Below are positions 8,822 to 56,253 of a stretch of DNA of 64,000 nt, one piece after another. A model generated the notes under the pieces. That model did no database searches and was not told where the DNA came from. It saw only the letters and a program-made list of their open reading frames with translations. The position numbers and the translations under genes are program-made. Each line of letters begins with the position of its first letter. Positions within the stretch are counted from its first letter, which is position 1. This DNA is from Ovis canadensis (taxonomy: Eukaryota; Chordata; Mammalia; Artiodactyla; Bovidae): positions 70,674,501 through 70,738,500 of the forward strand of contig NC_091263.1 of NCBI RefSeq assembly GCF_042477335.2, in the 5' to 3' direction.

Positions 8822-8893
8822 ATGCACTCGCCGTGCCGCGCAGCCCGCGCACGCCCGGATGGCTCGTCGCGCCGCGGGCGGCGCACCCCTTAG
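8822..8893 (+). CDS. Upstream ORF overlapping the PLXND1 start
   Basis: An ATG 37 nt before the plexin-D1 start opens a 23-codon frame that runs past the main ATG in another frame and stops at 8,893. Its initiation context is weak (C at -3, C at +4). If the mRNA starts upstream of it, ribosomes using it could not reinitiate at 8,859, so it would lower plexin-D1 output. Whether it is in the mRNA or translated is inference. Confidence 0.35.
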   Translation: MHSPCRAARARPDGSSRRGRRTP

Positions 8894-10187
8894 CGCCCGG
8901 GCCGCCGCGGCCAGCCCCCTGCCGCCGCGCCCGCCATTCCGGGCCCCGCAGTGCCCGCCGCCGCCGCCGCCGCTTTGGCTGCTGTTGCTCCTGGGGGCGG
9001 CGCGGGTCGGCGCCCTGGAGATCCAGCGCCGGTTCCCCTCGCCCACGCCCACCAACAACTTCGCCCTGGACGGCGCGGCGGGGACCGTGTACTTGGCGGC
9101 CGTCAACCGCCTCTACCAGCTGTCGGGCGCCAACCTGAGCCTGGAAGCCGAGGCGGCCGTGGGCCCGGTGGCCGACAGCCCGCTGTGTCACGCCCCGCAG
9201 CTCCCGCAGGCCTCGTGCGAGCACCCGCGGCGCCTCACCGACAACTACAACAAGATCCTGCAGCTGGACCCGGGCCAGGGCCTGGTGGTCGTGTGCGGCT
9301 CCGTCTACCAGGGTTTCTGCCAGCTGCGGCGGCGGGGCAACATCTCGGCGGTGGCCGTGCCCTTCCCGCCCGCCGCGCCGCCCGCCGCTCCCGTCACGGT
9401 GTTCCCCAGCATGCTGAACGTGGCGGCCAACCACCCCAACGCGTCCACCGTGGGGCTGCTCCTGCCACCCGCGGCCGGCGCCGGGGGCAGCCGCCTGCTC
9501 GTGGGCGCCACGTACACGGGCTACGGCAGCGCCTTCTTCCCGCGCAACCGCAGCCTGGAGGACCACCGCTTCGAGAACACGCCCGAGATCGCCATCCGCT
9601 CCCTGGACGCGCGCGGCGACCTGGCCAAGCTCTTCACCTTCGACCTCAACCCCTCCGACGACAACATTCTCAAGATCAAGCAGGGCGCCAAGGAGCAGCA
9701 CAAGCTGGGCTTCGTCCGCGCCTTCCTGCACCCTCCCGACCCGCGACCCGGCGCGCAGACCTACGCGTACCTGGCGCTCAACAGCGAGGCGCGCGCGGGC
9801 GACAAGGAGAGCCAGGCGCGGAGCCTGCTGGCGCGCATCTGCCTGCCCCGCGGCGCCGGCGGCGACGCCAAGAAGCTCACGGAGTCCTACATCCAGCTGG
9901 GCTTGCAGTGCGCGGGTGGCGCGGGCCGCGGCGACCTCTACAGCCGCCTGGTGTCCGTCTTCCCCACGCGCGAGCTGCTCTTCGCGGTCTTCGAGCGGCC
10001 GCAGGGGACCCCGGGGGCCCGCGCGGCTCCCGCCGCGCTCTGCGCCTTCCGCTTCGCCGACGTGCAAGCCGCGATCCGCGCCGCGCGCACCGCCTGCTTC
10101 GTGGATCCTGCACCCGACGTGGTGGCCGTGCTCGACAGCGTGGTGCAGGGCACTGGGCCGGCCTGCGAGCGCAAGCGCAACATCCAG
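8859..10187 (+). CDS. PLXND1: PLXND1 exon 1: signal peptide and most of the sema domain
   Basis: Encodes residues 1-443, ending in phase 0 at CAG|gtagga. The N-terminus ([19 protein letters not shown]) matches plexin-D1, which fixes the ATG at 8,859 although the frame stays open upstream to 8,082. A run of six CCG codons (8,955-8,972) gives six prolines just before the leucine-rich signal core; cleavage is expected before LEIQ, after about residue 52. The rest is the sema propeller with several N-glycosylation sequons, for example in GANLS, RGNIS, HPNAS and PRNRS. Initiation context is moderate: C at -3, G at +4. The single large first exon is typical of this gene. Confidence 0.97.
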
Positions 10188-29200: not shown

Positions 29201-32200
29201 CACACCACCTGCGGGGACTGCGTGGGCGCGGCCGACGCCTACTGCGGCTGGTGCACCCTGGAGACACGGTGAGGCCCCTGGGGCACAGGCTGGGCCCGGG
29301 AGGCCTCGGGGGTGGGGGCGCCCCAGACCCTGACCTGCGCCGGGCGTCCCAGGTGCACTCTGCGGCAGGACTGCGCCAACTCCAGCCAGCCACACTTCTG
29401 GACCAGTGCCAGCGCGGGCCCCAGCCGCTGCCCTGCCATGACCGTCCTGCCGGCTGAGATCAACGTGCACCAGGAGTACCCGGTGAGTCTGCGGGGGCCA
29501 GGACCCCAGCTCCGGGCTCAGGGGTGCGGGTAGAGAGCAGCCCTTCCCTGGCACCCAGACCCGACAGGTGGAGCCTCCTGGGTGTGGCGCCCCAGGGACC
29601 TGGAGGCAGATGATGAGACCAGTGCCTGGGTGCTCTTAACATCCTCATCATACAGATGGGGAAATTGAGGCACAGAGCGGTAAAGTGACTTGTTCAAGAT
29701 TATACAGTGAGGAAGTGCCCAAGCTGGGAATTGAATTCAAGTAGCTGCCCCCCTGCTCCCACAATCCATGTCCAGGAATGCCTAGGCCTGCCGCAGCTGG
29801 CTCCCTGCTTACCTGTAGCAGACAGCCTCGGTGCAGGGGATTCCAGGGAGCAGGAGCTGAGGGGCAGACAGGCTTGGGTGCCCCCCACCCCAGTCCTGCC
29901 CTCAGAGACTTCTCTGGGGCAGACATCCTCGTCTGTCACGTGATGGTTCTGATGACCAACAGGACGTGGGGCTCCCGTGCTCCCCGCTCCCCATCGTTAC
30001 ACATCATAATCCTGCACATAGGTCCTCTGGTCAAGCAGGCAGTCCGGGGCTTTGTCCATCCATTCATTCATTTAGTCATTCATCAATAACAGTAGGTGTT
30101 ATTGAGCACCTACTCTGTGCCATGTACAGCCCTGGACTTTGGGACACAGCAGTGAACAAGAGAGGCAAACCGCTGGTCCTTGAGGGGTGGACACACTCCC
30201 AGAGGAGAGAGCGGAAACAAGATAAAATGCCAAGATGGTGATAAGTGCTGTGGAGAAGAAGGAAGCAGAGCAGAGGACAGGGTACAGAGCATGCAGCCTG
30301 GCAGGGGCTAGTATTGACATTTTAGATCAGGTCGGGGTGGTGGGGGGCTCACTGCAAGGTAACATCCAAGCAGCGATAGGAAGCCAGCGTGAGCATCTGG
30401 GCAGAGGGATCCACCATTGCAAGGCCCTGGGGTGGGGGCAAGACTCATGACTGAGAGAGTGTTAAGAGGCTAGCATCTAAGGTCTGGGGCCAGATTGTAC
30501 AGGGCCTCTGGCTCCTGCAAGATGGTCAGTTTTACTTTGCAGAGGGGGAAACAGGCCCTCGTAGGCTGCATCCCCGTGGCCCTGGAGTCAAGGCTACTGA
30601 CCAACCTCTTCTCCCCAGGTTCCGGGGTGGGGGTGGGGTGGTGCGTGGCGTGGCCTCCCCTACCCCCGCACTCCCAGCTAAGGGTCCCTGGCTTCCAGGG
30701 TATGATCCTGCAGATCTCGGGGAGCCTGCCCAGCCTCAGCGGCATGGAGATGGCCTGTGACTATGGCCACGGCATCCGCACGGTGGCTCGGGTCCCGGGC
30801 CCAGCCTTCGGCCACCAGATCGCCTACTGCAACCTCCTGCCCAGGGATCAGTTCCCGCCCTTCCCGCCCCACCAAGGTAGGCACCTCATGGCCCGGGGTG
30901 CAGGGACGGCTGATGGGGCCCTCGGATGGTGGACTCTCAGGCATGGGGGGCTCCTGATGGCGCAGCTGCTGGTGTCGGTGGGCCCCCCCGCGTCCCCTTG
31001 TCCTTCTCTCCCTGGACGCCCTGCTCTGTTCCAGACCACGTGACTGTCGAGATGTCGGTGAGGGTCCAGGGGCAGAGCATCGTCAGGGCCAGCTTCACCA
31101 TCTACGACTGCGGCCGGGTTGGGCAGGTGTACCCGCACACAGCGTGAGTAGGGTGTCGGGACTAGCTGCCGCTGGGGGCAGGAGGCTTTGCTCTCGGGGA
31201 AGCTCCTCAAGAAAAATGGTGGTGTCACAGAGGCAGACGGGACCCTTGGCTATTCACCTGACAGCTCATTTGTGCAAAAAACTCTCATCACCCAGTGTGC
31301 CCGATGTCTGTGAGCACCCAGGCTAGTCGAGGCTCAGAAAAGTGCTTTGATTAGTCCCCTGGAGGCCCTGCTTGCCTGTCTCCTCCTTACATAGCTCCTG
31401 GACTGGGGAGCTCATTACCTTACAAAATGCCCAGCCCCTCTGGACAGCTCTGATGTTGAGCAAGACCTGGTTTCACTGTGCTGGGATCTGTGTCCTGGGT
31501 CCCCGCTGCTGGGCACAGGGATGGGGAGCCAGGTAGCTGAGGGAAGCCCCCCCTGTCTTTCAGTTGCACCAGCTGCCTGTCGGCACAGTGGCCCTGTTTC
31601 TGGTGTGCCCAGCAGCACGCCTGTGTCTCCAACCAGTCTCGGTGTGAGGCCTCACCAAATCCCACGGTAAGCCAGGCCCAGGGGTGCCCTCTGCCTCCAC
31701 TGTTCTTTTTTTTTTTTCATGTAGCACGTCGAGAACATTTCCGTGTCGTTACAGTGTCTTCTTTGGCTCCGACTTTTAACAGCCGCCGTGCTGGGCTCGT
31801 CACAGTGCATGTGACCAATCCCCTGTTGCCATTCTCTTCTCCAGGGGTTCTTCCCAACCCGGGGATTGAACCCGGGTCTCCTGCATTGCAGGCAGATTCT
31901 TCACCATCTGAGCCACCAGGGAAGCCCCTCCAATCCGCTGTTGTTGGACGTGCTGAGCGCGCCTCTTTCTTTTTTGTGTTCTGATACGTGCAGGGCATTG
32001 CACGGCCTTGACGGTCCCCTGGAGACCAGTTCTTCAACATGGCATTTTGGGGTGAAAGCCCATACTTTTAGCTCAGCTGACCCCCAGAAAGCCTGCGCCT
32101 GTTTACACTTCCAGCCTTTTAGGACAAGGCCCCTTCTTGCACATCATACTGACTTTCAATTTTATCTTCAAAGTTTTCCGCAACCCTCGCGGGTCAGGGA

Positions 32201-35200: not shown

Positions 35201-38200
35201 ATGGTGGTACCCACCTCACAGGGCATTTGGGGGGAGGGTTTGGTGAATTAATACAACACAGGGTGCTTGGAACTTTCCAGGTGCACGTGGAGGGCTGTGG
35301 GTGCCGGCTGCTAACCACCGTCACTACCCTGTCACTATTTATGACCGTGGTCAACGATAATAAATGACGCATTGGTGTCCCTCAAGCTCTGGTTTCACAC
35401 TGGGCCCCTGAGGGTCCCCTCAAGGAGCTCCTTGTCTGCTGAACAATGCTGAGAAAAGACCCCGGGTCCCCGTCTCTCACCTTGGTCCTCAGTTTCAGGC
35501 CGCAGTCTCTGGCCCGAGAACCCGGGAAAGATTGAAGGAAGGAGGAGAAGGGGGTGGCAGAGGATGAGCTGGTTGGTTGGCATGGACTTGAGTTTGAGCA
35601 AACTCCAGGAGGTAGTGAGGGACAGGGAAGCCTGGCGTGCTGCAGTCCCGGGGGTCGCAGAGAGTCAGACACGACCGAGCGACTGAACAACAGACTCCAC
35701 ATCTGACACGGGAATGCAGATGCCCAGGCCCCCTGCTCGGGGCCCGTGACGTGTCCAGGCAGTGGGGAGGAGTGTGCAGCCTCACACCCTGTTTCTGATG
35801 GGCCGCTCTGAAGTCTGCGGTTTCCTCTTTCGTGAATCATTCATCGTTTGTCCATCTGGAAACTGGAATTCCAGAGCTGGAGGGAGCCTCAGAAAGTGAG
35901 TGCAGCGCCTCATTTTACAGCTGGGGAAAGATGAGGCCCAGAGCCGGGGAGGTCTTCCCTAAGAGGCTCTCCGTGGAGTGGCCATGGGGATACCACTGGG
36001 CGGGTTACTGCCTCTTTCCGTGCCTCAGTCTCGTCTGTGAAATGGGGCCAATACACCTTCCCGCTCGGAGGATCAGGTGAGATGGTGTGTGCGCGGCGGT
36101 GGATGTGGCTCTCGTTTTATTAGCAGCGTTTCCTGTCTGCGTAGGCTGCCCAGCGCCTCCCCAGGGAGATGGGACGGCACCGGCTGGCTGGGGTGGTTGT
36201 GAATCCCGTCTCCTCTGGAACACCCCAGAGTCAGCCCTGCTTCTTTGTGTTTTGACTGCAGAGCCCTCAGGAGTGCCCGCAGATCCTGCCCTCCCCCCTG
36301 GCCCCCATGCCTACTGGCGGCTCCCAGAGCATCCCGGTGCACCTGGCCAGTGCCACCTTCTTCCAGGTAAGCGGGGGCGGGGCCCACCGCCCATGCTTTG
36401 CTTTTCCACTTACGTATTTATTTGGCTGCCTGGGTCTTAGTTGCAGCGTGCAGGATCTCTAGTTGCGGTATGTGGGATCTAGTTCCCTGACCAGAGATTG
36501 AACCCAGACCCCCTCCATGGGGAGCTCAGAGTCTTAGCCACTAGCCCACCCAGGAAGTCCCATGCTTCGGTTTTCTTCGTCTGAGTTTCTGGGCTCTGTT
36601 GGAGAAAGCCCTGCCCTGGTTGCACGGAGGTAGGGGGAAGGAAGGTGGGTGGTGGGCACAGGTCTTGGGGACAGCCAGCTGCCCCTAGCTCCTGCAGGAA
36701 AGGAGGGTCTGGCCAGGACCCCAGACCCTATCCCCTGTCATGCCCCCCGACAGGCCCAGCCCCTGCCCAGTGCTGCAGCCCACGGGTGACTTTGTCCATG
36801 TCCACCCTGCCCTGCCCCCAGGCTGGGTTGTGACCCTGGACATACCCCGCCCCTAGTTTGAGGCCTACACGTCTTCCCTGGAAAATGGCCCAAGACCCCC
36901 TTGGCCGCCCCATCCCCATCATCCCGGTGGGAAAAGCAGGAGGGGAAGCAGACGCCTCCAGGGACACGGCATCGGGCTAGACTCGCACCCTAGCCCTGGG
37001 CTCCTTGTCCAGTGCTCTTCCCCACCACCAGCCTTCCCTGCCTGCGTGCCGCCCCCGACACCCCCGCCACCCATCTGGGCTGGGGGAATGGAGGCCTTCC
37101 CTTGCTGGGTCCCTCCTGGAGGAGTGTCCTGGGTGGGAAGCGTTGACGAGTCCTGGATGTGTGCCAGCCACCCTCTCCCCAGCTCTCAGGGACTTGCCAT
37201 CTGTCGCTTCCACAGGGGAGCTGGGGCCCTTGACGACTTGTCACACGTGGGGGCCACGTGCCGGGGAGCCTCGTCATGGCAGGGGACGCTGCCCTGTGAA
37301 GGGCTGGGGACTGTGCCCTTGGTCCTGGGGCTGGCGGGGGGGCTGTGCCCTCGGTCCTGGGGCTGGCGGGGGGGCTGTGCCCTCGGTCCTGGGGCTCCTC
37401 CCCATGGTGGGCAGGGCAGAGCTTCCGGGGCATTTGGAGGAGGGAAGACCATGCTGCTCCCCTGGGCTGCCGGAGCCTGGGTCAGGGAGGCCCAGGGCTT
37501 GAGTGTGGGTCCTGCCTCCTGCTTTTGAGCAGAGTGTAACTGGGGGGCCCCCGTCTGCCTTCCTGGGGCCTTGGTGATCCTGGCCCGCCTTCCCCTGGGC
37601 CTGTTTCTGACTCTGCCTGGGCTCTGCAGCAGCCCGATCCATGGAGCTCACCCTCGGCAGAGCCCCAGACAGGCTGGCCGGCTACCGTGAGCCCAGACGC
37701 TCAGGAGACCCAGCTCAGTGTGGCAGGGATACAGGAGCTCTCAGCCTGTCAACAGCCACTTCCCTGTGTTAGTTTCATAGCGAAGCGGGGAGGGGCAGGG
37801 CCAGGGGGTGGCTGACCTGCCTTCTCCTCAGGGTAACATATCTACCTACGACAGGGACATAAACAGGAAGTCCTGCCACGCAGCTAGCCTAGCCCTCTTG
37901 AAACTTGGGTTTGTTCACTCAGCAAATATTTACTGATGGCTGCTCCCGGGAAGCCTGTGCTGGGCTGAGGGCAAGATGGCATTGGGGAATTGGCCCTGTT
38001 TATTTTTTCCCCCCAAACAAAGCATTTATTGAGCACTTCCTGCATACTGATCACAGCCAGCATATATTAGGCGCCCACAGCGTGCAACCCACTAAAGATA
38101 CATGGTGTCCAGTCTCCTTAGAGTCTGCAGAGTAGGGGGGTCTCTTTGCATTGCTGAGTTTAGAGGCCCACACAGCTCAGAGGAGGAGCCGCCTGCACAG

Positions 38201-44200: not shown

Positions 44201-47200
44201 CGGGGCAGCCAGTTCCGCCTGGATTACCTCCCTGACCCGCAGTTCTCCACGGCCAAGCGGGAGAAGTGGATCAAGCACCACCCTGGGGAGCCCCTCACCC
44301 TGGTGATCCACGTGAGTGCTGGCGGGGGCGCAGGGCGGGGAGGGGGCCCGTGAGCAGATCAGGCGCGGGGCGGGGAGAGGGGGACCTAAGCAGATCAGGC
44401 GTGGGGCGGGGATGGGGGGGCATGAGCAGATTCTCCTGAGCGCCCCTGGGTAGGGGGAGCGGTGTGAGCAGATCGGGCTCTGCCCTGGGCCCCGGGTGAG
44501 CACCCCTTCTGCTCCCGCAGAAGGAGCAGGACGGGCTGGGGCTCGAAAGCCATGAGTACCGTGTCAAGATCGGCCAAGTGGCCTGCGACATCCAGATTGT
44601 CTCCGAGAGAGTCATCCACTGCTCCGTCAATGAGTCCCTGGGCACGGCTGAGGGGCAGCTGCCCATCACAGTGAGTGGATGGGGCGCCGGAGGCAGGGGT
44701 GGTCCCCCGGGTCCTGCCCTCAAGGCCTGATCACCTGCCCTGCCATCCAGGGCATCTCAGCTGAGCACCTTCACACTCAGGAGCTCAGACAGTGGAAGAA
44801 AGCAGAGCTTTATGTCCCCACTGGGCAGATGAGGAAACTTGAGGCCTGAGTGACCTGTTCAGGGTCCGTGACTGGCCCCCAGCTGGGCCCAATGGGCTGG
44901 ATTCTGAGAGGCCATGAGAGGCGGTCCCTGTTCCACCTGGTGGCATACCCAGAGTCTGGGCCGCCAGTCACCAGGCAGTCACAGAGGGAGGGAAGCAGGA
45001 GAGGTGAGGAGAAGGCCCGGAAAGGGGGGGGTCTCTTCTGCACTTTACCTGCTTGCATGCCTCCCGGGATGGGGAGCTCATTCCCTTCCTGGCAGCACAC
45101 ACACCCCATGATGGCTGTGAACTGCAGAAGCTGCCTTTCGCCTGCACCCCAGTCCCAGTTCTGCAGTCTGAGCCCTAAGAACTCACTTGCTCCCCTGGTC
45201 CTCGGGCAGCCCAACAGATACTTCAGCTCACAGGCCAGGCTCTGGGAACTGCCTGTAGTCATCACAGAACTAGTAATCACAGTTTCCTGTATTTCTCGAG
45301 TTGCCCGTTCCGTGCCAGGCCCAGGACTAAGGGTTTGACAAGTGTCATCTCTTGTAGCCCTCACAGTGTCCCCAGGAGGCGGGTGGGGTTCTCTCTTCTA
45401 TTGATACTTAGGGCATCCGAGGCTCAGAGAGGTCAGGTGAGTTGCTCCAGGCCATACAGCCAGTGAGGAGAAGAGCCAGGGCGTATGTCCAGGAAAGCTA
45501 CTGCTCCCTCATCACAACCTCCCATCCCCACAGATCCAGGTAGGGAACTTCAACCAGACCATCGCCACGCTGCAGCTGGGGGGCAGCGAGACCGCCATCA
45601 TCGTGTCCATCGTTATCTGCAGCGTCTTGCTGCTTCTCTCCGTGGTCGGTAAGGAGCCTCTGAAGGTCGGCGGGTAGGACAGAGGTGTGTTGGGCCGGGC
45701 ACACTGAATAAAGGTGTGGAGCTGGGAGCGGGTTAGGTGCTCAGAGTGGGGTGAGGAGGGCATCTCAGCGACCGTGCAAAGTGTGCAGGACGGGCCCTGT
45801 CGGGAGGTGTGCCGGCCCGGGCCCTGAGTGCCAGGCAGAGGGCCTTGGAACCGTGGGCTGTAGGGCTACTGAAGCTACTTCTGAGGGGGCTGCTCGGGGA
45901 AGATGACCCTACGCATTAGGTAGGCTATACCCCTGTTAAAATAATGGTCACAAAAGTACTATATTCAGTCGCAGGGCAGTGGAGCCCTCGTACACTGCTG
46001 GTGGGAATTTACCTGGTGCCGCTGCTATGGCAAACTCACCACCAGTTTCCTCGAAAGGTTAGCGTTACTGCATGACCCAGCAATTCCCTACCCTGGGCAT
46101 CTGCCCAGGAGAATGAGAACAGTCATCCGCACCAGCCCCTGTGTACCAGGGTTCACAGTGGCAACTGCCCAAAATGTCCATCCGCTGATGGACAAAGAAC
46201 ATGTGGTTTAGCCACGTGGGGGAATAGTGTTAAGTCATACAAAGGAAGGGAGTTCTGACACGTACGTCAGCGTGGGTGACCCTTGACATCATCATGGTAA
46301 GTGAAAGACGCCAGGTATAAAAGGCTACCTCTCGTTTGGTCCCACTTATATAAAATGTCCAGAACAGGTAAATCAAAAAACACAAGACACATTAGTGGTT
46401 CCTAGAGGCAGGAGGAGGCTGTATAGGGACTGATTACTTGTGGTCGTGGGTCTCCTAGTGGCAGGAAAAGTGTGCTAAAATTCGATCGTGGATGGTGTCA
46501 CAACCCCATAGTATACTAGAAGGCAGTGAGTTGTCTACATAGGTAGATTAGATGGCATGTGTATTATCCCAAAGAAGCTGGTTTTTAAAAAGCAATATAT
46601 TCAATGTAGAAAATTTTAGGGAAAACAGAGATAGAAGAAATCACCCATCATTCTCGTAGCTAGAGCAGTCCACTGTTGATCACTATTTTATGCTTTTCGC
46701 TCCACAAGTAACTTACTTTTTCAATTAATTTTATTAGAGTTAATTTACAGCGTGGTGTTAGTTTCCAGTGTGCTGCAAAGTGACTGAGCTACACGCAGAC
46801 CTCTGTCCATTCTTTTTCCATGTAGGTTATTACACAGTATAGAGTTCCCTGTGCTAGGCAGTAGGCCCCAGTTGGTGAGCTGTTTTATATAAGTAGTGTG
46901 GATGCGTCCCTCCCCTCACCTTTCCCCTTTGGTAACCGCAAGTCGGTTAAAGTCTGTGAGTCTTTCTGCTTCGTAAATAAGTTCATTTGTATTATGTTTG
47001 TCTAACTCCCTTCACTTGGAACGATAGTCTCTAGGTCTATCCATGATGCTGTAAATGGCTTTACGTCCTTCTTTATGGCTGAGCAGTATTTCATCGCATC
47101 CTCCTTATCCACTCCTCTGTCGATGGACATGCAGGTTGCTCCCATGTAAATTGCAAATAGTGCTGCAGTGAACACTGGGCTGCATGTATCTTTTGGAAAT

Positions 47201-48944
47201 TATGGTTTTCCCCAGATATATGCCCTGGAGTGGCATTGCTGGGTCATATGGTAGCTCTCCAGGAGATGGTGATGGGCAGGGAGGCCTGGCGTGCTGCGAT
47301 TCATGGGGTCGCTAAGAGTTGGACACAACTGAGTGACTTCACTTTCACTTTCACGCACTGGAGAAGGAAATGGCAACCCACTCCAGTGTTCTTGTCTGGT
47401 GGGCTGCCATCCACGGGGTCGCACAGAGTTGGACACGACTGAAGCGCCTTAGCAGCAGTAGCCTCTTTGATGATGGCCATTCTGACCAGTGTGAGGTGGT
47501 ATGGAGTTGTTGAGATTTGCAGTTCTCTACTCATTAGTGACGCGCGTCTTCTCATGTGCCTCTTGGCCCCCTGTATGTCTTCTTTGGAGAAATGTCTATT
47601 TTAGGATCTTCCACCCATTTGTTGATGGGGTGGTTTGCTGTTTTTGGCGTTGAGTTGAGTGAGCTGCCAGAGGAGCTGAGGCTCGCAGGCAGGCTGTCTC
47701 CCTTCCACCCAGGCCCTGCACACGGCAGGTGACAACACACACTCGGACACTGAAGGGATCACAGGCCTGACCCACCTCTCTGCTGCCCACAGCCCTGTTC
47801 GTCTTCTGCACCAAGAGTCGCCGTGCCGAGCGCTACTGGCAGAAGACGCTGCTGCAGATGGAGGAGATGGAGTCCCAGATCCGGGAGGAGATCCGTAAAG
47901 GTAGCGGGGCGGCCGCGCGGGGAGGAGATCCGTGAAGGTAGCCGGGCGGCCACGTGGGGCCTCGGGCCTTGGCATCGCCCCCTGATCCACTCACGGCCAC
48001 CTGACTGCCCACCAGGCTTCGCAGAGCTGCAGACGGACATGACGGACCTGACCAAGGAGCTGAACCGCAGCCAGGGCATCCCCTTCCTGGAGTACAAGCA
48101 CTTCGTGACCCGCACCTTCTTCCCCAAGGTCAGGGCAGGCTCCCACCAGCTGGTGATACCTCAGGCGTTCCTTGAGCCTGCCCTTGAGCAGTGTGAAACC
48201 TGCATACCCGCCTATGGCAGCCCAGCCACCTTCCCTGGCCGCCCTGCCTGGCCCCAACTTGCTTTCTCTGCTGATTTGATGTTTGAGTGTGCCTACTGAA
48301 GTCAGCTGTCAGCCCCGCTTTCCTCCTGGGGTGCTGGGCCTGCCTCTCCTCTCACCAAGGAGCCATCCCCTCTCCATCTCTTCCATCTCTCCTGTCCACT
48401 GGACTCAGTCCCCTCGCTTCCATGCCTCCTCGTGCTGTTCCAGGGGCCGCTGCCCCATCCCCACCTTCCTCGGCCTGTCAAGAATCTCTCTTAGGGTGGC
48501 CCCACTCTTCTCAGTGGGACATCAAGCCCCTGTTGGGTCCCCTCAGGCCTCTCTGCCTCGTTTCCTCCTTCCACACCGGGCTGCTTTAGCTTCCTCTTAC
48601 GCCTGTGCGCTCCAGCTTCGCCACCCGTGGACTTCAGGCTGGTTCTGCTTTTCCTCCAGGAAGCCCCCCTTGGACTCCCCTCCCCTCTCCTCTGGAGTCC
48701 TGTGGCCCCTGGGTGTGGCCCACTGCCTCTTCCTGTTGAGTGGGCTTGCGCATTTGTGGGGCAGACCCTGCGTGGGTCGGGGGTACGCAGCCCTGCTGAG
48801 ACACTGGGGGTCTGCTCCACAGTGCTCCTCCCTCTATGAAGAGCGTTACGTGCTCCCCTCCCAGACCCTCAACTCCCAGGGCAGCTCCCCAGTGCAGGAG
48901 ACCCACCCGCTGCTGGGAGAGTGGAAGGTGAGTAGCCCCCGACC

Positions 48945-52000: not shown

Positions 52001-55000
52001 CAAGCTTGGGGGTCCTAGGCTCCTGGAGGCCTTGGGGTCCCTTCCAGCAGCTGGTGAGGTCTGGGCTCGCGGCAGTGGGCCCTCGTGGGGAGCTGCCCCG
52101 TGTCCATCTGTGATCATCTCCCTGCTTCTCCTGTCCCCTGTGGACGCCTTTCTGTCTCTCTCAACGCCTCTGTCTTTCTGTCTGGGCCTCCTTCCATGCG
52201 TGTCTCTAGCTCTCACTCTCCACTGTCTTTCTGTGCATTTCTCGTCTCCTCTCCACACATCTATTTGGCTGTGCCCATCTCACTGGGTTTCTTTCTCCAG
52301 CTTTTTGCCTCCATTTCTCGTTTGCTCGCTCTCTCTCCCCCTGCTCCTGGCTCTTGTTTATTTATCGTGTGTGTTTCCCTCTCGCAGTGAAAGACTTGGA
52401 CACGGAGAAGTATTTCCACTTGGTGAGTGCCCTGCCTCTGGCCCTGGGGGTGCCCGCCCCTCACTGGGAGTGGACTTGGCCTCCTGCCACCCTGGGCCTC
52501 TGGAGGCCGTGCTCCCAGGCCTGGGGAAGGCTGGGCTGGGGAGTGTGCAGAGCCAGGCCCCCGCGGGGGCCGGGTAGGGCCTCCCAGGGGCAGCTGAGGG
52601 TGGTGCCCGGCGCCAGCACTGACCCAGCCCGGGCCTCCCAGGTGCTGCCCACAGACGAGCTAGCAGAGCCCAAGAAGTCCCACCGGCAGAGCCACCGCAA
52701 GAAGGTGCTCCCGGAGATCTACCTGACCCGCCTGCTCTCCACCAAGGTGGGCCCGCCCCCCGCATGTCCTCACTCCCGGGGGTCAACTGGGACCACACGC
52801 TGGGGGAGCGGGGGACAGCTCTTCTCCTGCAGGGCCAGCCGCAACCCCAGCTTGAAGGGTGCCCGGCAACAACTTCTCTGTTCGCTGGAGTGACAGAGAA
52901 GGCAGTAGTGGCCCAGAAACATCCCCAAGGCCACATGGCTAGAGGCAGAGAGCCCACACCCCAGCCCACCAATTCCCTGCTCTGTTTCCAAGTCCTTCCG
53001 ACACTCCTGTGCCGTGGGTTTCACCAACCCATTTCACAGACAGGAAAACTGAGGCCCATAGCACTTAGGAGGCCAGCCTGGGGCCACACAGCTTCCCATT
53101 CACCCAGCACTGCTCAGCCCCAGCACCACGGGCTCCCCACAGCCGCCAGAGGTGCCTGTCACCAACCCCCTCCCGCCCCCACGTGTTCCTGGGCTGATGG
53201 CCGCCACTCACTCCCCTGCAGGGCACGCTGCAGAAGTTTCTGGATGACCTGTTCAAGGCCATCCTGAGCATCCGGGAAGACAAGCCCCCACTGGCCGTCA
53301 AGTACTTCTTTGACTTCCTAGAAGAGCAAGCCGAGAAGAGGGGCATCTCAGACCCCGACACACTGCACATCTGGAAGACCAACAGGTGGGGGGCCCTCAG
53401 GGGGTCCGGTAAGGGGCGGGGCTGCTTCACTGGGTCACGCAGGCAACAGTGGGGTTGGGGTTCAGAGCCTGGATTCAGTCCCTTATGCCATTCCAAGCTG
53501 TGTGAGCTTGAACAAGAGACTTCTCTGAGCTTTAGTTTCCCCCAGCTGGAAAACCAGGGCAGTAAAAGGAACCCTCCTTAATTGTAAGGATTAACTAGAA
53601 GTGAGCATTGTCTAAGTTTTGCCCTGTTGTCCCTCTCCCCACCCCCCACCCCTCCCCCTTGGGTGGGCACTGTCGGCTCCATTTTGCAGACAAGCACTCT
53701 GAGGCTCGCAGAGACGTGCCTGCCTCCATCACATCCCTCCTTGGAGGCATGTGTTAGCTTTTCAGAGACCCAAACCCCAACAGGAAGTTGTTGAAAAGTT
53801 CAGCCTGACTCTCGAAGAGTTGCCACAGACGCAGAAGTTTCTCTGTTGTTGCAGGGGCTGCTCTGAGCCATTGGTGATGGGGGCGGTGTGTGTGTCCCCC
53901 TGTCCCAGGCCCCCAGCCACTGGGGAGGCAGTTTTACCAACCCTCCAGCCATCTTAGGCCTCGCCCACCCTCAGCCCTTCCTGGTGACCCAGCTAATGAT
54001 GGACTGACTCCTCACAGCCACACAGGGCTGGGGGAGGAGCCACAGGCTGCCAGGCAGGGCGGGGACTCTAATGAGAACCAGGATTGGGCCCTGGCTCCCA
54101 GCTCCTGCGTGTGAGCAGGGGACTCTGTGGGGGATGGGGCGGGCAGCGAGGGCCAACTCAGGCCTCTCTGCCACCCCTCCCAACCCCCTACCAGCTAGGG
54201 ACAGTCACCAACCCCGTTTTGTGGAGGAGACACCGAGGTTCCCAGAGCTTCCATCCAGTCTCCACTGGCCTCGGGAGCAAAGCCAGCCTGTCCTCTGGGC
54301 CTGCTGGCCTCCCTGGCCGAGCCCCCATCAGTGACCGCCTCCTCCGCGACCCACCCTCAGGCGGGGCTCATGCCACTGCCTCCCTCTGTCCCCCAGTCTT
54401 CCTCTGCGCTTCTGGGTGAACATCCTGAAAAACCCACAGTTTGTCTTCGACATCGAGAAGACGGATCACATTGACGCCTGCCTCTCGGTCATCGCTCAGG
54501 CCTTCATTGACGCCTGCTCCATCTCCGACCTGCAGCTGGGCAAGGTCAGCTGCTGTGGGCGGGCCGCCCAGTGCTGCAGGGACGGCGGACTTTCTGGGAG
54601 GGAACCGGAGGAGCTCGGATGTAGGGTGAATGGGGTCATCAGATGGGGGTTGTCCCGGAAACGGGCACCCACAGTCACAAACTCCAGGGCTGCAGCTGCC
54701 TCAGCTGTGCCCAGCACCAGCTCCCGAATCTTCAGGCCCTAGAGCCAGGCGGGGAGAAGCCAGGTGGGCGTGGAAAGCCCAGGTGGTCTGATACCTTGTA
54801 GGCGAACAGCCGGGCTCCAGGCGACAGCCCTGACGGTCAAGAGCCGCAGGAGGAGACCGGAGAGAGAGCGGACTGTAGGGAGAGGGCGCAGCAGGCCTGA
54901 GAGAGCCCGGCGTTCCAGGCCGAGGGGCTGTGAGTGTTCATGAGACGGGAGTTAGACCTGGCCCTGCCGTTAGCCCGTGACTTTCAGAGACAGACTACAA

Positions 55001-56253
55001 AAATGGCAGAAAACGCCATCACCTCTCACAGGCTATCTGGGAGAGCAGGACACCTGTGACAGACAAAGAACCAGGAGCGTACTTGGCACGCTTCGCTCTC
55101 GGGAGTAGGAAACACGTGCTGGGAAATATTCCACTGAGACAGCAGTCAGGCTTCCAGAAATCTTAGCCACCGAGACCCATAACCCTCAGCAAGGACGCAA
55201 ACTAAATAGCCTGCGTGTCCAAGAGCTGGCACGAGCCCGTGCACTTTCCCCTCCAAGTAGGTCCCCCGTGAGGTTGTCACCCTGAGGGTCGTGCAGAAAA
55301 CGGGGCGGAGAGGAGAGGAGTGGGGCGCCCCCGGTGCACAGCCTGCAGCGCAGGGATGCTGGCTCAGGGGTGGCCCCGTGCGTGCGGCGGTGTCGACACG
55401 GGCCGGCCCAGGAAGAGCCTGCTGTCTCCACCCGGCGTCTTACTCCCTGGCTCCTGTCTGCCCACCCAGGACTCACCAACCAACAAGCTGCTCTACGCCA
55501 AGGAGATCCCCGAGTACCGGAAGATCGTGCAGCGCTACTACAAGCAGATCCATGACATGACCCCGCTCAGCGAGCAGGAGATGAACGCACACCTGGCCGA
55601 GGAGTCGCGGGTGCTGCCGGCCCCACGGGGTCCTCGCCGGGAGGACGGGGGTGGTGGGCAGGACTCGGCCGTCAGAGCTGGGGGCAGTGTGGGGCTGTGT
55701 ACAAGCAGCGGGTCTTGACTGGGCTGGGCCTGGCTCGGACCGTGGAGTCTCCACTGCAGTCCAACTCCCGCCCCGTCTTTCCTCACAGAAATACCAGAAT
55801 GAGTTCAACACCAACGTGGCCATGGCAGAGATCTACAAATATGCCAAGAGGTATCGCCCGCAGGTGAGCAGCCCCCGGCGTGAGGCCCGGGGCACCCCCC
55901 CGCCCCACATCAGCCCTTCCCAGCCGCTCATGGAAACCCGGGAGCGCGGGGCTCAGGTACTCCGGGCCCCAGGACAGCGGATTGTGCTGTGGGCGTGGCT
56001 GCCAGCACCGGGAATCCAGGCCACGTGTGCGCGTGCGTGTGTGTGCGCTCCCCGCAGATGTGTGGTGGGGCCGGGCGGGGGTGTCCTGGGCCCTGAACTA
56101 AATCCTCTGCCAACCACTCGCCCTCCACCGCCCCAGATCGTGAGCGCCCTGGAGGCGAACCCCACGGCCCGGAGGACACAGCTGCAGCACAAGTTTGAGC
56201 AGGTGGTGGCCCTCATGGAGGACAACATCTACGAGTGCTACAGCGAGGCCTGA
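8859..56253 (+). CDS. PLXND1: Plexin-D1, complete 36-exon coding region
   Basis: Cell-surface semaphorin receptor (SEMA3E and others) that signals through an intracellular Ras/Rap GAP; it guides endothelial sprouts, axons and thymocytes. I joined 36 exons, each with GT-AG sites and compatible phases, to a 1,931-residue protein (human is about 1,925). Order: signal peptide to about residue 52, sema domain to about 546, PSI domains near 547-600, 719-753 and 850-901 separated and followed by IPT/TIG folds up to about 1255, membrane helix 1277-1300, juxtamembrane coiled coil about 1303-1350, GAP segment C1 about 1370-1560, GTPase-binding domain about 1563-1690, GAP segment C2 about 1715-1925. GAP arginines R1490/R1491 and R1776 are present. 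The protein ends SEA, the known GIPC PDZ ligand. No break, frameshift or missing catalytic residue is seen. Identity rests on recognising plexin-D1 over the full length, not on a search. Confidence 0.98.
10860..11070. repeat. MIR remnant in intron 1
   Basis: Near full-length MIR: tgagcatttagcgtgcacca arm, then GATGAAGCAACTGAGGCCC and GATCACACAGCTCAGGAGG. Confidence 0.85.
12444..12604 (-). mobile_element. BovB/Bov-A fragment with target duplication
   Basis: Reverse complement of the same BovB 3' tail as at 2,252 (TTCAGTTCAG start, TCGTGTCTGACTCTC, CACCAACTCCCGGAG). It is flanked by the 9-bp direct repeat CTAAGGATT (12,435-12,443 and 12,605-12,613), which marks its insertion. Confidence 0.92.
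16385..16600. repeat. MIR remnant in intron 1
   Basis: Shows GAGGCCCAGAGAGGGAAAG then CTTGCCTGAGGTCACACAGC, the conserved MIR core. Confidence 0.85.
17449..17462 (+). promoter_or_regulatory. RFX-type X-box candidate
   Basis: GTCGCTATGGAAAC is a near-palindromic match to the RFX X-box (GTNRCC-N0-3-RGYAAC). Position only; binding is inference. Confidence 0.35.
17720..17900. promoter_or_regulatory. Unique block with forkhead and homeodomain-type motifs in intron 1
   Basis: Contains AATAAATCA, TTAATCA and GTAAATAA (17,835-17,842, forkhead type) within 110 bases, in non-repetitive sequence that differs in composition from its GC-rich surroundings. A possible intronic enhancer; conservation could not be checked. 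Confidence 0.3.
18080..18265. repeat. MIR remnant in intron 1
   Basis: Reverse MIR pattern: GGCTGTGTGACCCAGGGCAA followed by GTCACTTGACCTCTCTG and CTTCCTTTTCTATAAAGTA. Confidence 0.85.
18920..18975. promoter_or_regulatory. AP-1/MARE-like motif in a small GC block
   Basis: TGAGTCAGC (18,927-18,935), inside TGCTTGAGTCAGC, matches AP-1 and half of a Maf recognition element, and abuts the CpG-dense GCGGCCGCGGCGGC. Candidate enhancer core only. Confidence 0.3.
20184..20236. repeat. (GT)n microsatellite
   Basis: GT repeat with two GGTGTG interruptions, directly upstream of a degenerate SINE, as is common for tails of Bov SINEs. Confidence 0.95.
20237..20330 (-). mobile_element. Degenerate Bov-tA SINE fragment
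   Basis: Retains TTGGTCGCTCACTAACTTTG and CTCCCGGCGAGAGTACTGGA, diverged from the family signatures seen elsewhere in the window; the rest of the element is missing. Confidence 0.7.
20565..20965 (-). mobile_element. Two adjacent tRNA-derived (CHR-type) SINEs
   Basis: Two reverse-oriented copies in tandem, split by a T/A run near 20,700. Each ends in the tRNA-like arm (CTGACCAGGGATTGAACTCG and CTGACCAGGGATCGAACCTG, then ACCACTGGACCACC-like sequence). Confidence 0.85.
21050..21268 (+). mobile_element. Bov-tA type SINE
   Basis: Forward copy: GGTAAAGAACCCGCCTGCCA, CACTCCAGTGTTCTTGCCC, GGACAGAGGAGCCTGG, ending in GAGTCGGACACAACTGAAGC. Confidence 0.93.
24222..24515 (-). mobile_element. tRNA-derived (CHR-type) SINE
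   Basis: Reverse copy opening with a T run and ending GGGATCGAACATGTGTCACC, GGCAGGCAGATTC, CGCGAAGTCCC. Contains the typical GTTGCGGAGCTCAGGCTCT segment. Confidence 0.88.
25535..25548 (+). promoter_or_regulatory. RFX-type X-box candidate upstream of exon 2
   Basis: GTTGCTATGGAGAC closely matches the RFX X-box palindrome and lies 327 bp before exon 2. Second such site in intron 1. Confidence 0.4.
25875..26051 (+). CDS. PLXND1: PLXND1 exon 2: sema domain
   Basis: Residues 444-502, phase 0 at both ends, acceptor ttgcag|CTGCAG and donor AAG|gtacgg. It continues the propeller with [11 protein letters not shown], the typical late-sema strand. The following 2.7-kb intron holds MIR remnants and a Bov-tA SINE at 27,140. 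Confidence 0.97.
26630..26700. promoter_or_regulatory. Homeodomain/GATA-type motif cluster in intron 2
   Basis: AT-rich island in GC-rich sequence containing TAATTGATT (26,654-26,662) and CTGATAA. It could be a conserved element; nothing more can be said from one sequence. Confidence 0.2.
27140..27336 (-). mobile_element. Bov-tA type SINE in intron 2
   Basis: Reverse copy from GTCGCTCAGTCGTGTCTGAC to GAGCCATCAGGGAAGCCC. Imperfect 12-base repeats (acatagcgggaa / acacagcaggaa) at the edges look like an aged target duplication inside a MIR. Confidence 0.93.
28777..28908 (+). CDS. PLXND1: PLXND1 exon 3: end of the sema domain
   Basis: Residues 503-546, phase 0 at both ends; begins [10 protein letters not shown] and ends YLMTSHQ. 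The acceptor follows a long C-rich tract. It closes the propeller; the next intron is only 259 bp and shows nothing else. Confidence 0.96.
29168..29268 (+). CDS. PLXND1: PLXND1 exon 4: first PSI domain
   Basis: Residues 547-580; begins MARVKVAAC and carries the cysteine pattern [15 protein letters not shown] of a plexin-semaphorin-integrin knot. Donor ACG|gtgagg splits an arginine codon after its second base. The next intron is 84 bp. Confidence 0.96.
29353..29482 (+). CDS. PLXND1: PLXND1 exon 5: end of PSI-1
   Basis: Residues 580-623. The first base completes the arginine codon, followed by CTLRQDC, the remaining PSI cysteines, and a link to the first IPT-like fold. Donor CCG|gtgagt, phase 0. 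The following 1.2-kb intron holds a MIR near 29,610 and otherwise old repeat debris. Confidence 0.96.
29610..29745. repeat. MIR remnant in intron 5
   Basis: ATACAGATGGGGAAATTGAG, GCACAGAGCGG and GTGACTTGTTCAAGATTATA match the MIR core. Confidence 0.85.
30699..30876 (+). CDS. PLXND1: PLXND1 exon 6: IPT-like segment
   Basis: Residues 624-683; begins [15 protein letters not shown] and includes [13 protein letters not shown], an IPT/TIG-type strand pattern between PSI-1 and PSI-2. Donor CAAG|gtaggc leaves one base of an aspartate codon. Confidence 0.96.
31035..31143 (+). CDS. PLXND1: PLXND1 exon 7: IPT-like segment
   Basis: Residues 683-719; [13 protein letters not shown] to QVYPHTA, finishing the first IPT-like fold. 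Donor AGC|gtgagt. The 420-bp intron after it shows nothing recognisable. Confidence 0.96.
31564..31666 (+). CDS. PLXND1: PLXND1 exon 8: second PSI domain
   Basis: Residues 719-753 with the compact PSI cysteine spacing [14 protein letters not shown] followed by CVSNQSRC. Acceptor tttcag|TTGCACC, donor ACG|gtaagc, ends in phase 0. Confidence 0.96.
31829..31927 (-). mobile_element. Truncated Bov-tA SINE in intron 8
   Basis: Only the tRNA-side half remains (GGGGATTGAACCCGGGTCTC, GCATTGCAGGCAGATTC, GAGCCACCAGGGAAGCCC). Confidence 0.92.
35520..35694 (+). mobile_element. BovB/Bov-A 3' fragment in intron 8
   Basis: Same family tail as at 2,252: GGTTGGTTGGCATGGACTTG, GGACAGGGAAGCCTGGCGTG, GTCAGACACGACCGAGCGAC. 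Confidence 0.9.
36262..36366 (+). CDS. PLXND1: PLXND1 exon 9: IPT-like segment
   Basis: Residues 754-788, phase 0 at both ends; begins [11 protein letters not shown], which follows directly on NPT of exon 8. It opens the fold between PSI-2 and PSI-3. Donor CAG|gtaagc is strong. Confidence 0.96.
36393..36562 (-). mobile_element. tRNA-derived (CHR-type) SINE in intron 9
   Basis: Reverse copy beginning about 27 bases after the exon 9 donor; contains TTAGTTGCAGCGTGCAGGAT, CCTGACCAGAGATTGAACCC and CACCCAGGAAGTCCC. Confidence 0.9.
37313..37396. repeat. 32-bp minisatellite in intron 9
   Basis: About 2.6 near-identical copies of a 32-base unit starting GTGCCCT(C/T)GGTCCTGGGG and containing GGCGGGGGGGCT. 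Confidence 0.93.
39031..39120 (+). CDS. PLXND1: PLXND1 exon 10: IPT-like segment
   Basis: Residues 789-818, 30 codons, phase 0 at both ends: [12 protein letters not shown] to CKQVV. Donor GTG|gtgagc. As a symmetrical 90-nt exon it could be skipped without a frameshift, but nothing here shows that it is. Confidence 0.96.
39334..39427 (+). CDS. PLXND1: PLXND1 exon 11: IPT-like segment
   Basis: Residues 819-850; [18 protein letters not shown] to SPDPMT, ending the second IPT-like fold. Donor ACAG|gtggga leaves one base. The 940-bp intron after it contains a MIR at about 40,055-40,260. Confidence 0.96.
40055..40260. repeat. MIR remnant in intron 11
   Basis: Reverse MIR pattern CAGGCTGTGTGACCTCGGGC, AAGTCACTCTGCCTCTCTGA, TTTACCTGTCAATTGGGGC. 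Confidence 0.85.
40368..40522 (+). CDS. PLXND1: PLXND1 exon 12: third PSI domain
   Basis: Residues 850-901, [18 protein letters not shown] and LCVWSDGC, the third PSI cysteine cluster. Donor GCG|gtaagc, phase 0. The next 757-bp intron shows MIR-like remains near 40,660-40,830 and nothing else. Confidence 0.96.
41280..41431 (+). CDS. PLXND1: PLXND1 exon 13: IPT/TIG domain
   Basis: Residues 902-952; [18 protein letters not shown] is the classic opening of an IPT/TIG immunoglobulin-like fold. Donor GGA|gtgagt splits a glutamate codon. The 1.1-kb intron that follows contains a Bov-tA SINE at 41,955. Confidence 0.96.
41955..42165 (+). mobile_element. Bov-tA type SINE in intron 13
   Basis: Forward copy: GGCTTCCCTGGTGGCACAGC, GGGTCGGGAAGATCCCCGGG, CAACCCACTGCAGTATGCTT, GTCCATGGGGTTCCAGAGTC. 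Moderately diverged. Confidence 0.92.
42508..42607 (+). CDS. PLXND1: PLXND1 exon 14: IPT/TIG domain
   Basis: Residues 952-985; [10 protein letters not shown] to FSYV completes the IPT begun in exon 13. Donor GTG|gtaagg; the next intron is 83 bp. Confidence 0.96.
42691..42830 (+). CDS. PLXND1: PLXND1 exon 15: IPT/TIG domain
   Basis: Residues 986-1032; [18 protein letters not shown] opens the next IPT. Donor GCT|gtaagt splits a leucine codon. The 710-bp intron that follows has MIR-like debris around 42,880-43,190. Confidence 0.96.
43541..43708 (+). CDS. PLXND1: PLXND1 exon 16: IPT/TIG domains
   Basis: Residues 1032-1088; RSDASIAC to [11 protein letters not shown] ends one IPT and [12 protein letters not shown] begins the next. 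Donor CAG|gtgaga splits a serine codon; the next intron is 88 bp. Confidence 0.96.
43797..43887 (+). CDS. PLXND1: PLXND1 exon 17: IPT/TIG domain
   Basis: Residues 1088-1118; [17 protein letters not shown], a typical IPT strand pair. Donor ACG|gtgagg, phase 0. Confidence 0.96.
44048..44311 (+). CDS. PLXND1: PLXND1 exon 18: membrane-proximal IPT region
   Basis: Residues 1119-1206, phase 0 at both ends; [16 protein letters not shown] closes one IPT, and [16 protein letters not shown] with [12 protein letters not shown] begins the membrane-proximal fold. The 209-bp intron after it contains a 36-bp GC-rich tandem repeat. Confidence 0.96.
44352..44430. repeat. 36-bp tandem repeat in intron 18
   Basis: About 2.2 copies of a unit starting (G/A)AGCAGATCAGGCG(C/T)GGGGC, G-rich on the coding strand; a fourth diverged AGCAGATC follows at about 44,478. 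Confidence 0.85.
44521..44670 (+). CDS. PLXND1: PLXND1 exon 19: membrane-proximal fold
   Basis: Residues 1207-1256; [17 protein letters not shown] and HCSVNESLG, including an NES glycosylation sequon. Donor ACA|gtgagt, phase 0. The 863-bp intron ends in a MIR that reaches nearly to the next acceptor. Confidence 0.96.
45290..45490. repeat. MIR remnant before exon 20
   Basis: Near full-length MIR ending about 45 bases before the exon 20 acceptor: CCGTGCCAGGCCCAGGACTA, GAGGCTCAGAGAGGTCAGGT, CCATACAGCCAGTGAGGAG. Confidence 0.85.
45534..45648 (+). CDS. PLXND1: PLXND1 exon 20: transmembrane helix
   Basis: Residues 1257-1295. After [13 protein letters not shown] comes the hydrophobic stretch [18 protein letters not shown], which continues into exon 21; the membrane helix spans about 1277-1300. 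Donor TCG|gtaagg leaves one base of an alanine codon. Confidence 0.97.
45935..46600 (+). mobile_element. L1 LINE 3' fragment, forward
   Basis: Old L1 3' region in sense orientation: TACACTGCTGGTGGGAATTT, ATGACCCAGCAATTCCCTAC, and AAAATGTCCATCCGCTGATGG-like sequence. No intact reading frame. Confidence 0.8.
46715..47645 (-). mobile_element. L1 LINE 3' fragment, reverse
   Basis: Bovid-type L1 3' end in reverse orientation: GCTGCAAAGTGACTGAGCTA, GGTTATTACACAGTATAGAG, GCATTGCTGGGTCATATGGT, GATGATGGCCATTCTGACC. Interrupted by a Bov-A2 SINE at 47,256. No intact frame. Confidence 0.88.
47256..47462 (+). mobile_element. Bov-A2 SINE nested in L1
   Basis: Dimeric element: both halves end alike (GGGGTCGCTAAGAGTTGGACACAACTGA-like and GGGGTCGCACAGAGTTGGACACGACTGA-like). 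It splits the reverse L1, so it is the younger insertion. Confidence 0.88.
47793..47900 (+). CDS. PLXND1: PLXND1 exon 21: end of membrane helix and juxtamembrane coiled coil
   Basis: Residues 1295-1331; ALFVFC ends the helix, then [13 protein letters not shown] and [13 protein letters not shown] form the charged juxtamembrane coiled coil. Donor AAAG|gtagcg leaves one base of the glycine codon. The last 18 exonic bases plus the donor are duplicated immediately downstream (period 37 bp); see the repeat at 47,883. I chose the first donor because it gives the reading frame GFAELQ known for plexin-D1. Confidence 0.95.
47883..47956 (+). repeat. PLXND1: 37-bp tandem duplication covering the exon 21 splice donor
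   Basis: Copy 1 is 47,883-47,919 and copy 2 is 47,920-47,956, with four mismatches. Each contains GGGAGGAGATCCGT(A/G)AAG followed by gtagc, so the intron starts with a second donor at 47,938. Splicing there would add 37 nt to exon 21 and reach an in-frame TGA at 47,933-47,935, after the membrane helix. Use of the second donor is inference. Confidence 0.9.
48016..48128 (+). CDS. PLXND1: PLXND1 exon 22: juxtamembrane segment
   Basis: Residues 1331-1368; [18 protein letters not shown] continues the coiled coil, then [16 protein letters not shown] leads into the GAP domain. Donor AAG|gtcagg, phase 0. The 694-bp intron is C/T-rich with nothing recognisable. Confidence 0.96.
48823..48927 (+). CDS. 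PLXND1: PLXND1 exon 23: start of the GAP domain
   Basis: Residues 1369-1403, 35 codons, phase 0 at both ends; [14 protein letters not shown] to LLGEWK. Donor AAG|gtgagt is strong and is followed 21 bases later by a long CA repeat. Confidence 0.96.
48949..49004. repeat. (CA)28 microsatellite in intron 23
   Basis: Fifty-six uninterrupted bases of CA dinucleotide on the + (coding) strand, immediately downstream of the exon 23 donor. In RNA it would be a CA-rich binding tract of the hnRNP L type, and its length is likely to vary between animals. The rest of the 532-bp intron shows nothing I recognise. Confidence 0.98.
49460..49590 (+). CDS. PLXND1: PLXND1 exon 24: GAP segment C1
   Basis: Residues 1404-1447; [20 protein letters not shown] and [16 protein letters not shown], strongly conserved plexin GAP sequence. 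Donor ACAG|gtccgg is weak (C at +3). The 359-bp intron after it shows nothing else. Confidence 0.96.
49950..50148 (+). CDS. PLXND1: PLXND1 exon 25: GAP segment C1 with first arginine finger
   Basis: Residues 1447-1513; [17 protein letters not shown], then [17 protein letters not shown] with the catalytic arginine pair R1490/R1491 that plexins use to stimulate GTP hydrolysis on Rap/R-Ras. Both arginines are intact. The 574-bp intron holds MIR-like remains near 50,250-50,500. Confidence 0.97.
50723..50869 (+). CDS. PLXND1: PLXND1 exon 26: end of GAP segment C1
   Basis: Residues 1514-1562, 49 codons, phase 0 at both ends; [17 protein letters not shown] and [20 protein letters not shown]. Donor CGG|gtgagc; the next intron is 117 bp. 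Confidence 0.96.
50987..51143 (+). CDS. PLXND1: PLXND1 exon 27: GTPase-binding domain
   Basis: Residues 1563-1615; starts [19 protein letters not shown] and contains [15 protein letters not shown], the ubiquitin-like Rho-GTPase-binding domain inserted between the two GAP halves. Donor CTAG|gtgggc leaves one base. The 324-bp GC-rich intron shows nothing else. Confidence 0.96.
51468..51571 (+). CDS. PLXND1: PLXND1 exon 28: GTPase-binding domain
   Basis: Residues 1615-1649; [19 protein letters not shown] to LNTLAHYK. Donor AAG|gtgggc, phase 0; the next intron is only 79 bp. Confidence 0.96.
51651..51714 (+). CDS. PLXND1: PLXND1 exon 29: GTPase-binding domain
   Basis: Residues 1650-1671, only 64 nt; [21 protein letters not shown]. 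Donor CGAG|gtagtg. The following 673-bp intron includes a pyrimidine-rich stretch of about 270 bp leading up to the next acceptor. Confidence 0.95.
52388..52422 (+). CDS. PLXND1: PLXND1 exon 30: 35-nt small exon
   Basis: Residues 1671-1682, [12 protein letters not shown], the smallest exon of the gene. It is held in place by a long C/T-rich acceptor tract ending ctcgcag and by donor TTG|gtgagt. Together with exon 29 it adds 99 nt, so the pair keeps frame although each alone does not. Confidence 0.95.
52642..52746 (+). CDS. PLXND1: PLXND1 exon 31: link to GAP segment C2
   Basis: Residues 1683-1717, phase 0 at both ends; [19 protein letters not shown], a basic stretch, then [11 protein letters not shown]. 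Donor AAG|gtgggc. The 475-bp intron contains a MIR near 52,900-53,100. Confidence 0.96.
53222..53385 (+). CDS. PLXND1: PLXND1 exon 32: GAP segment C2
   Basis: Residues 1718-1772; [32 protein letters not shown] and [11 protein letters not shown], among the best conserved plexin sequence. Donor ACAG|gtgggg. The 1.0-kb intron shows old repeat remains near 53,640-53,720 and nothing else. Confidence 0.97.
54397..54544 (+). CDS. PLXND1: PLXND1 exon 33: GAP segment C2 with second catalytic arginine
   Basis: Residues 1772-1821; [19 protein letters not shown] carries R1776, the second catalytic arginine of plexin GAPs, and is followed by [16 protein letters not shown]. Donor AAG|gtcagc, phase 0. The 925-bp intron shows no recognisable element. 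Confidence 0.97.
55470..55610 (+). CDS. PLXND1: PLXND1 exon 34: GAP segment C2
   Basis: Residues 1822-1868, 47 codons, phase 0 at both ends; [18 protein letters not shown] to [10 protein letters not shown]. The donor CGG|gtgctg lacks the usual A at +3/+4 and G at +5, so it is the weakest donor in the gene; the next exon's KYQNEF supports its use. Confidence 0.95.
55789..55863 (+). CDS. PLXND1: PLXND1 exon 35: end of GAP segment C2
   Basis: Residues 1869-1893, 25 codons, phase 0 at both ends; [20 protein letters not shown]. Donor CAG|gtgagc is strong. Confidence 0.97.
56137..56253 (+). CDS. PLXND1: PLXND1 exon 36: C-terminus and stop codon
   Basis: Residues 1894-1931 and TGA. It ends [10 protein letters not shown]; the terminal SEA is the known PDZ-domain ligand for GIPC, which links plexin-D1 to endocytic recycling. 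The exon continues into the 3' untranslated region. Confidence 0.97.
   Translation: MVSALEANPTARRTQLQHKFEQVVALMEDNIYECYSEA

Follow-up and report, generated by a model that had tools for sequence, protein, structure and literature searches.

Introns are reportedly gained when a segment bearing AGGT is duplicated in tandem. Competition between neighbouring 5′ splice sites (donors) has been described for DOK7: when SRSF1 is bound immediately upstream of the donor pair, the intron-distal donor is disfavoured (PMC5585400). An enhancer between competing donors is reported there to favour the intron-proximal one, and the global analysis of that paper gives this no clear corroboration (PMC5585400). 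In Paramecium, 92-98% of the splice variants of median-expression genes are attributed to error (PMC5663052). Here we describe a 37-bp tandem duplication over the boundary of exon 21 and intron 21 of the plexin-D1 gene, PLXND1, in Ovis canadensis. It is probably a neutral, slippage-born change that gives a minor splice form bound for nonsense-mediated decay (NMD). The window referred to below is the whole stretch of DNA that was analysed, 64,000 nucleotides long.

Exons were placed by local tblastn with a human plexin-D1 sequence as the query, and splice junctions were picked by reading frame and protein match; for each of the 35 introns exactly one solution came out best. The resulting PLXND1 model spans 8859-56253 on the plus strand and consists of 36 coding exons with an open frame of 1931 codons (1931 aa) followed by a stop codon at 56251-56253. 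Apart from the duplication, PLXND1 is intact in the window. The part of the product from the membrane helix to the C-terminus has Plexin-D1 (5v6r_A, 1302.7 bits) as its best solved match, the next being Plexin-B1 with 630.8 bits, and the C-terminal part also matches the Plexin-D1 chain 3h6n_A. Pfam matches in the cytoplasmic part are PF08337 (Plexin_cytopl) and PF20170; the product thus has the plexin cytoplasmic GAP and RBD domains, and its closest match is Plexin-D1. Exon 21 (47793-47900, plus strand, 108 nt) encodes the last part of the membrane helix together with the juxtamembrane segment, and is followed by exon 22 at 48016-48128 on the same strand. Both were located by tblastn and the splice model, and in the ungapped tblastn segments both match the human protein at 100% identity.

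Exon 1 (8859-10187) should carry most of the semaphorin-like domain; scanned alone, it gave no Pfam family at E 0.001. Intron 8 contains a tRNA-Cys (GCA)-like gene on the minus strand (31850-31923; Rfam tRNA, 34.7 bits), which may be a tRNA-derived repeat. A SINE-like stretch at 47400-47460, just upstream of the region described below, resembles Bov-tA elements, in keeping with a ruminant source.

The repeated unit of 37 bp is present in two head-to-tail copies on the plus strand. Copy 1 (47883-47919) is composed of the 18 nt that end exon 21 and the 19 nt that begin intron 21, and copy 2 (47920-47956) repeats this exon end and its donor with identity at 33 of 37 positions (89%). Tandem Repeats Finder reported the same repeat as 47883-47959, with a period of 37, 2.1 copies and a score of 126. 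The copies differ at unit positions 15 (A/G), 24 (G/C), 33 (G/A) and 36 (C/T). A reading made earlier from the sequence only had proposed just such a duplication with four mismatches, taking in the last 18 bases of exon 21 and lying after the membrane helix. Tandem Repeats Finder and a pairwise repeat search bear out the repeat, its exonic part is 47883-47900, the exon concerned is indeed the 21st of 36 coding exons in the spliced model, and the position of the donor relative to the helix was likewise correct.

In 20 first-order Markov resamples of the window there was not a single tandem pair with a period of 25-60 and at least 89% identity. By the same criterion the real window returned five rows, three of which belong to one AC repeat, one to an array at 37305 and one to the PLXND1 donor pair. 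Chance is ruled out as the origin of the pair at the exon 21 boundary. The unit starts with GGG, and GGG also stands directly after it, an arrangement that fits slippage between short matches. Two further tandem arrays were found in introns of the gene: one of 32 bp × 2.8 at 37306-37396 in intron 9, with 96% matches, and a GC-rich one of 36 bp × 2.9 at 44327-44431, which begins 15 nt past the first base of intron 18 and leaves the donor of that intron (44312) outside the array. With such arrays present elsewhere in its introns, duplications of this kind are ordinary in PLXND1, and the unusual point of the 37-bp duplication is that it covers a splice donor. Among the titles of the matches listed in the open-access literature, no like case of a tandem duplication at an exon boundary was described.

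The sequence here is GC-rich and repetitive, as would suit an error of assembly or polishing. The two copies differ at four places, however, and two of the four differences are of the CpG-transition type, as expected of old copies. Moreover, a 291-base query over exons 21-22 against the 2.97-Gb, 42-contig assembly returned the self match and one 80-base plexin paralogue exon and nothing more (E 0.001). The argument from the mismatches, already made in the sequence-only reading, therefore holds and is aided by the single locus in an assembly of 42 contigs; an artefact is so improbable that we give it hardly any weight.

The divergence of the copies (4/37, with a 95% interval of 3-25%) gives, by hand arithmetic at a neutral rate of ~2.2e-9 per site per year, an age of some 7 to 70 million years, a range too wide for placing the duplication on the ruminant tree. 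When two degenerate DNA patterns were searched against viral contigs, 30 and 1 IMG/VR contigs were matched; in a BLAST of 47793-48128 against 33 loci, viral ones among them, the viral entries among the best 10 rows were only short pieces of 14 to 51 bases, with a best E of 0.006. A search of the genome contigs collection with one degenerate DNA pattern gave 0 matches. In the same genome a paralogue of exon 22 lies at C19:74752565-74752644, whose sequence reads like that of a plexin A.

The geometry at intron 21 is that of an alternative 5′ splice site, with two complete donors (GT at 47901 and 47938) and one acceptor (AG ending at 48015). Donor 1 (47901-47902, plus strand), AAAG|GTAGCG, keeps the reading frame; the duplicated donor 2 (47938-47939, plus strand), GAAG|GTAGCC, shifts it. 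Within these stretches the two differ only at −4 and +6. Scored with human donor frequencies, for which the consensus reaches 8.84, donor 1 has 1.25 and donor 2 has 0.86, as compared with a median of 4.14 for the other 34 donors of PLXND1, only four of which score 1.25 or less. Position +5 is C in both copies and G in 32 of the 34 other donors. In terms of pairing with U1, donor 1 is the third weakest of the 35 model donors (−6.2 kcal/mol); the value for donor 2 (−6.6 kcal/mol) belongs to a duplex that is out of splice-site register and is unusable as a measure of strength. The earlier description of the donors as about equally strong was thus right about their equality but conceals that both are weak. 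The donors at 51715 (intron 29) and 55611 (intron 34) also lack G at +5; the latter, GCGG|GTGCTG, has the lowest score of the 35 (−2.78), and its modelled position is best taken with some caution.

Counted from donor 1, intron 21 (47901-48015, plus strand) is 115 nt long, and from donor 2 (47938-48015) it is 78 nt long, which is exactly its length with one copy omitted, and the candidate branch points keep the same spacing. One of three matches to the branch-point consensus, identified by consensus only, is the A of CTGAT at 47985 on the plus strand; it precedes the end of the acceptor AG by 30 nt and lies 84 nt from donor 1 and 47 nt from donor 2. Donor 2 thus stands at the distance from the acceptor at which a single donor would stand, and its use is mechanically plausible. 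A new intron between the copies was considered and rejected: only 37 nt separate donor 1 from the AG of copy 2, too short a distance to be spliced. This is below the length limit of mammalian splicing.

RNA structure decides nothing between the two donors. The fold of 47850-48020 is no better than that of shuffled sequences (z +1.51), 189 of 200 of which reach an equal or better fold, and the order of predicted donor accessibility flips with the folding window, so that local pairing favours neither site consistently. The purine-rich GGGAGGAGATCCGT is identical in both copies and could favour donor 2 beyond the minor use assumed here.

Read in frame, use of donor 2 would add an 11-residue tail past exon 21 and then reach a TGA at 47933-47935 (plus strand), 2 nt before the new end of the exon. 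The tail and the stop agree with what had been predicted from the sequence before. The whole Plexin_cytopl match would be removed, as it starts at query residue 79 and exon 21 ends at residue 58 (hand count). It had been claimed that almost no cytoplasmic part would be left; more than that would remain, ~41 cytoplasmic residues if the helix ends at ...VFC. A stop more than ~50 nt upstream of a later junction generally directs a transcript to NMD. Both the exon 21/22 junction and 14 further introns follow the TGA, as is typical of AS-NMD, and NMD is therefore expected and a stable receptor devoid of the GAP domain unlikely. Between the two fates that had been offered for the transcript, NMD is clearly the likelier, and a stable decoy would need to escape it. 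With the base that copy 1 has at the exonic mismatch, the TGA of copy 2 would become TAA. The codon is a stop with either base, so it need not have been selected or acquired for a purpose.

The duplication also changes what retention of intron 21 would mean. If either copy is omitted from the sequence, the intron is 78 nt long, in frame and free of stops, and a transcript retaining it would gain 26 aa and escape NMD. In the two-copy state the frame through the retained intron of 115 nt ends at the TGA at 47933-47935, as it does with donor 2 use. Because of this common stop, the transcripts from retention and those from donor 2 use would both be bound for NMD and encode the same protein end. 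Of resampled 78-mers, 81% have no stop in that frame, and a third of all lengths keep the frame. Moreover, introns 6, 14 and 30 are also stop-free when retained (13 introns of up to 260 nt were tested), and intron 30 is in frame as well. A stop-free single-copy intron is thus common, and the change in the fate of retention is a consequence of the duplication and not proof of selection. The duplication could matter more through the visibility of intron 21 to NMD than through donor 2, as an error trap for retention and wrong donor choice possibly kept for that in the lineage, a reading to which we attach only a slight probability. With either copy absent, the 26-residue insert from retention would fall in the linker between the membrane and the GAP domain. 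Intron 30 (52423-52641, 219 nt), being a multiple of three and stop-free, would upon retention insert 73 residues inside the stretch matched by PF08337.

Taken together, these observations make a neutral duplication with a minor, NMD-cleared splice form the most likely explanation, a silent donor 2 the next, and a decoy unlikely. A small tandem duplication, probably arisen by slippage, straddles the exon 21/intron 21 boundary and so copied a weak 5′ splice site, leaving two donors that presumably compete. Since plexin-D1 is made only through donor 1 and the gene is intact, this donor must handle a sufficient share of the splicing. The use of donor 2 is probably minor, perhaps depending on the tissue, and the transcripts made from it, like those retaining intron 21, would end at the same TGA and be removed by NMD. 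The expected net effect is nil or a small drop in receptor output, and a stable decoy devoid of the GAP domain would not be expected. The extent of use may differ from this in either direction, with donor 2 silent or employed more than to a minor degree.

The case for donor 2 having no measurable use, with the second copy as inert intron, draws on the absence of both G at +5 and A at +4, on its low score relative to the median of the other donors, and on the fact that, of the 3388 GTs in the window, ~10% reach its score or a higher one; with sites of this score so frequent, only a few can be true donors. Yet donor 1, which is necessarily used, has a nearly identical sequence and score, and the distance from donor 2 to the acceptor is the one a single donor would have, so that we regard complete silence as rather unlikely. 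If donor 2 is used, its product could in principle persist as a membrane-anchored plexin-D1 without the GAP domain, a putative semaphorin decoy, since the frame ends past the membrane helix and before the Plexin_cytopl match. The position of the stop ahead of so many junctions speaks against this, as does the fact that no selection needs to be invoked for the stop. Moreover, no title among the open-access matches listed names a PLXND1 isoform of such a kind, which is weak evidence of absence as subscription papers fall mostly outside the scope of that literature, and none is mentioned in passages of PMC6499541 and PMC3389612. We consider a stable decoy very improbable. Competition between the donors could also act as a putative regulated dial of splicing plus NMD that adjusts receptor abundance in certain tissues. 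Donors of equal strength should respond most to the balance of SR proteins and hnRNPs, and in DOK7 nearly a quarter of the transcripts use the intron-distal donor in three tissues with low SRSF1 mRNA (PMC5585400). However, such a short duplication, whose copies differ at four places, is not in itself evidence of selection, and a regulated dial seems to us improbable.

If the minor use of donor 2 that we favour does occur, the lineage would lose part of the output of an important vascular guidance receptor through a leak inherent in the gene, and the locus offers a natural experiment on the way in which splicing is divided between near-identical donors 37 nt apart and on how much loss of plexin-D1 is tolerable. 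If donor 2 is unused, the locus is a clear natural example of a copied donor silenced by its context. Whichever way donor 2 falls, the decoy claim needs RNA evidence before it is taken any further.

The locus shares features with several known systems. As in DOK7 intron 4 (PMC5585400), neighbouring donors are joined to one acceptor and the choice is between the full protein and a frame-shift with a truncated protein. In DOK7, however, the donors have a spacing of 11 nt, with the intron-proximal one being canonical, whereas in PLXND1 they are 37 nt apart, were born by duplication, and the intron-distal one is canonical. Splice-site-creating variants collected in a registry (PMC11718197) resemble PLXND1 in that a sequence change makes a new donor near the old one; those variants form a new motif, whereas in PLXND1 a whole donor was copied. 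Use of the DOK7 donors was seen by RT-PCR, and the created sites were detected via new transcriptome junctions, whereas the use of donor 2 of PLXND1 is a prediction from the sequence. Where introns arise from the tandem duplication of a segment with AGGT (PMC4974935), the tandem copy carries AGGT, as it does in PLXND1, but PLXND1 gains no new intron, 37 nt being insufficient in length. Finally, although the use of donor 2 and any benefit of it are predictions from the DNA, the locus is like AS-NMD or noisy splicing (PMC5663052) in that an alternative donor brings a premature stop upstream of many junctions.
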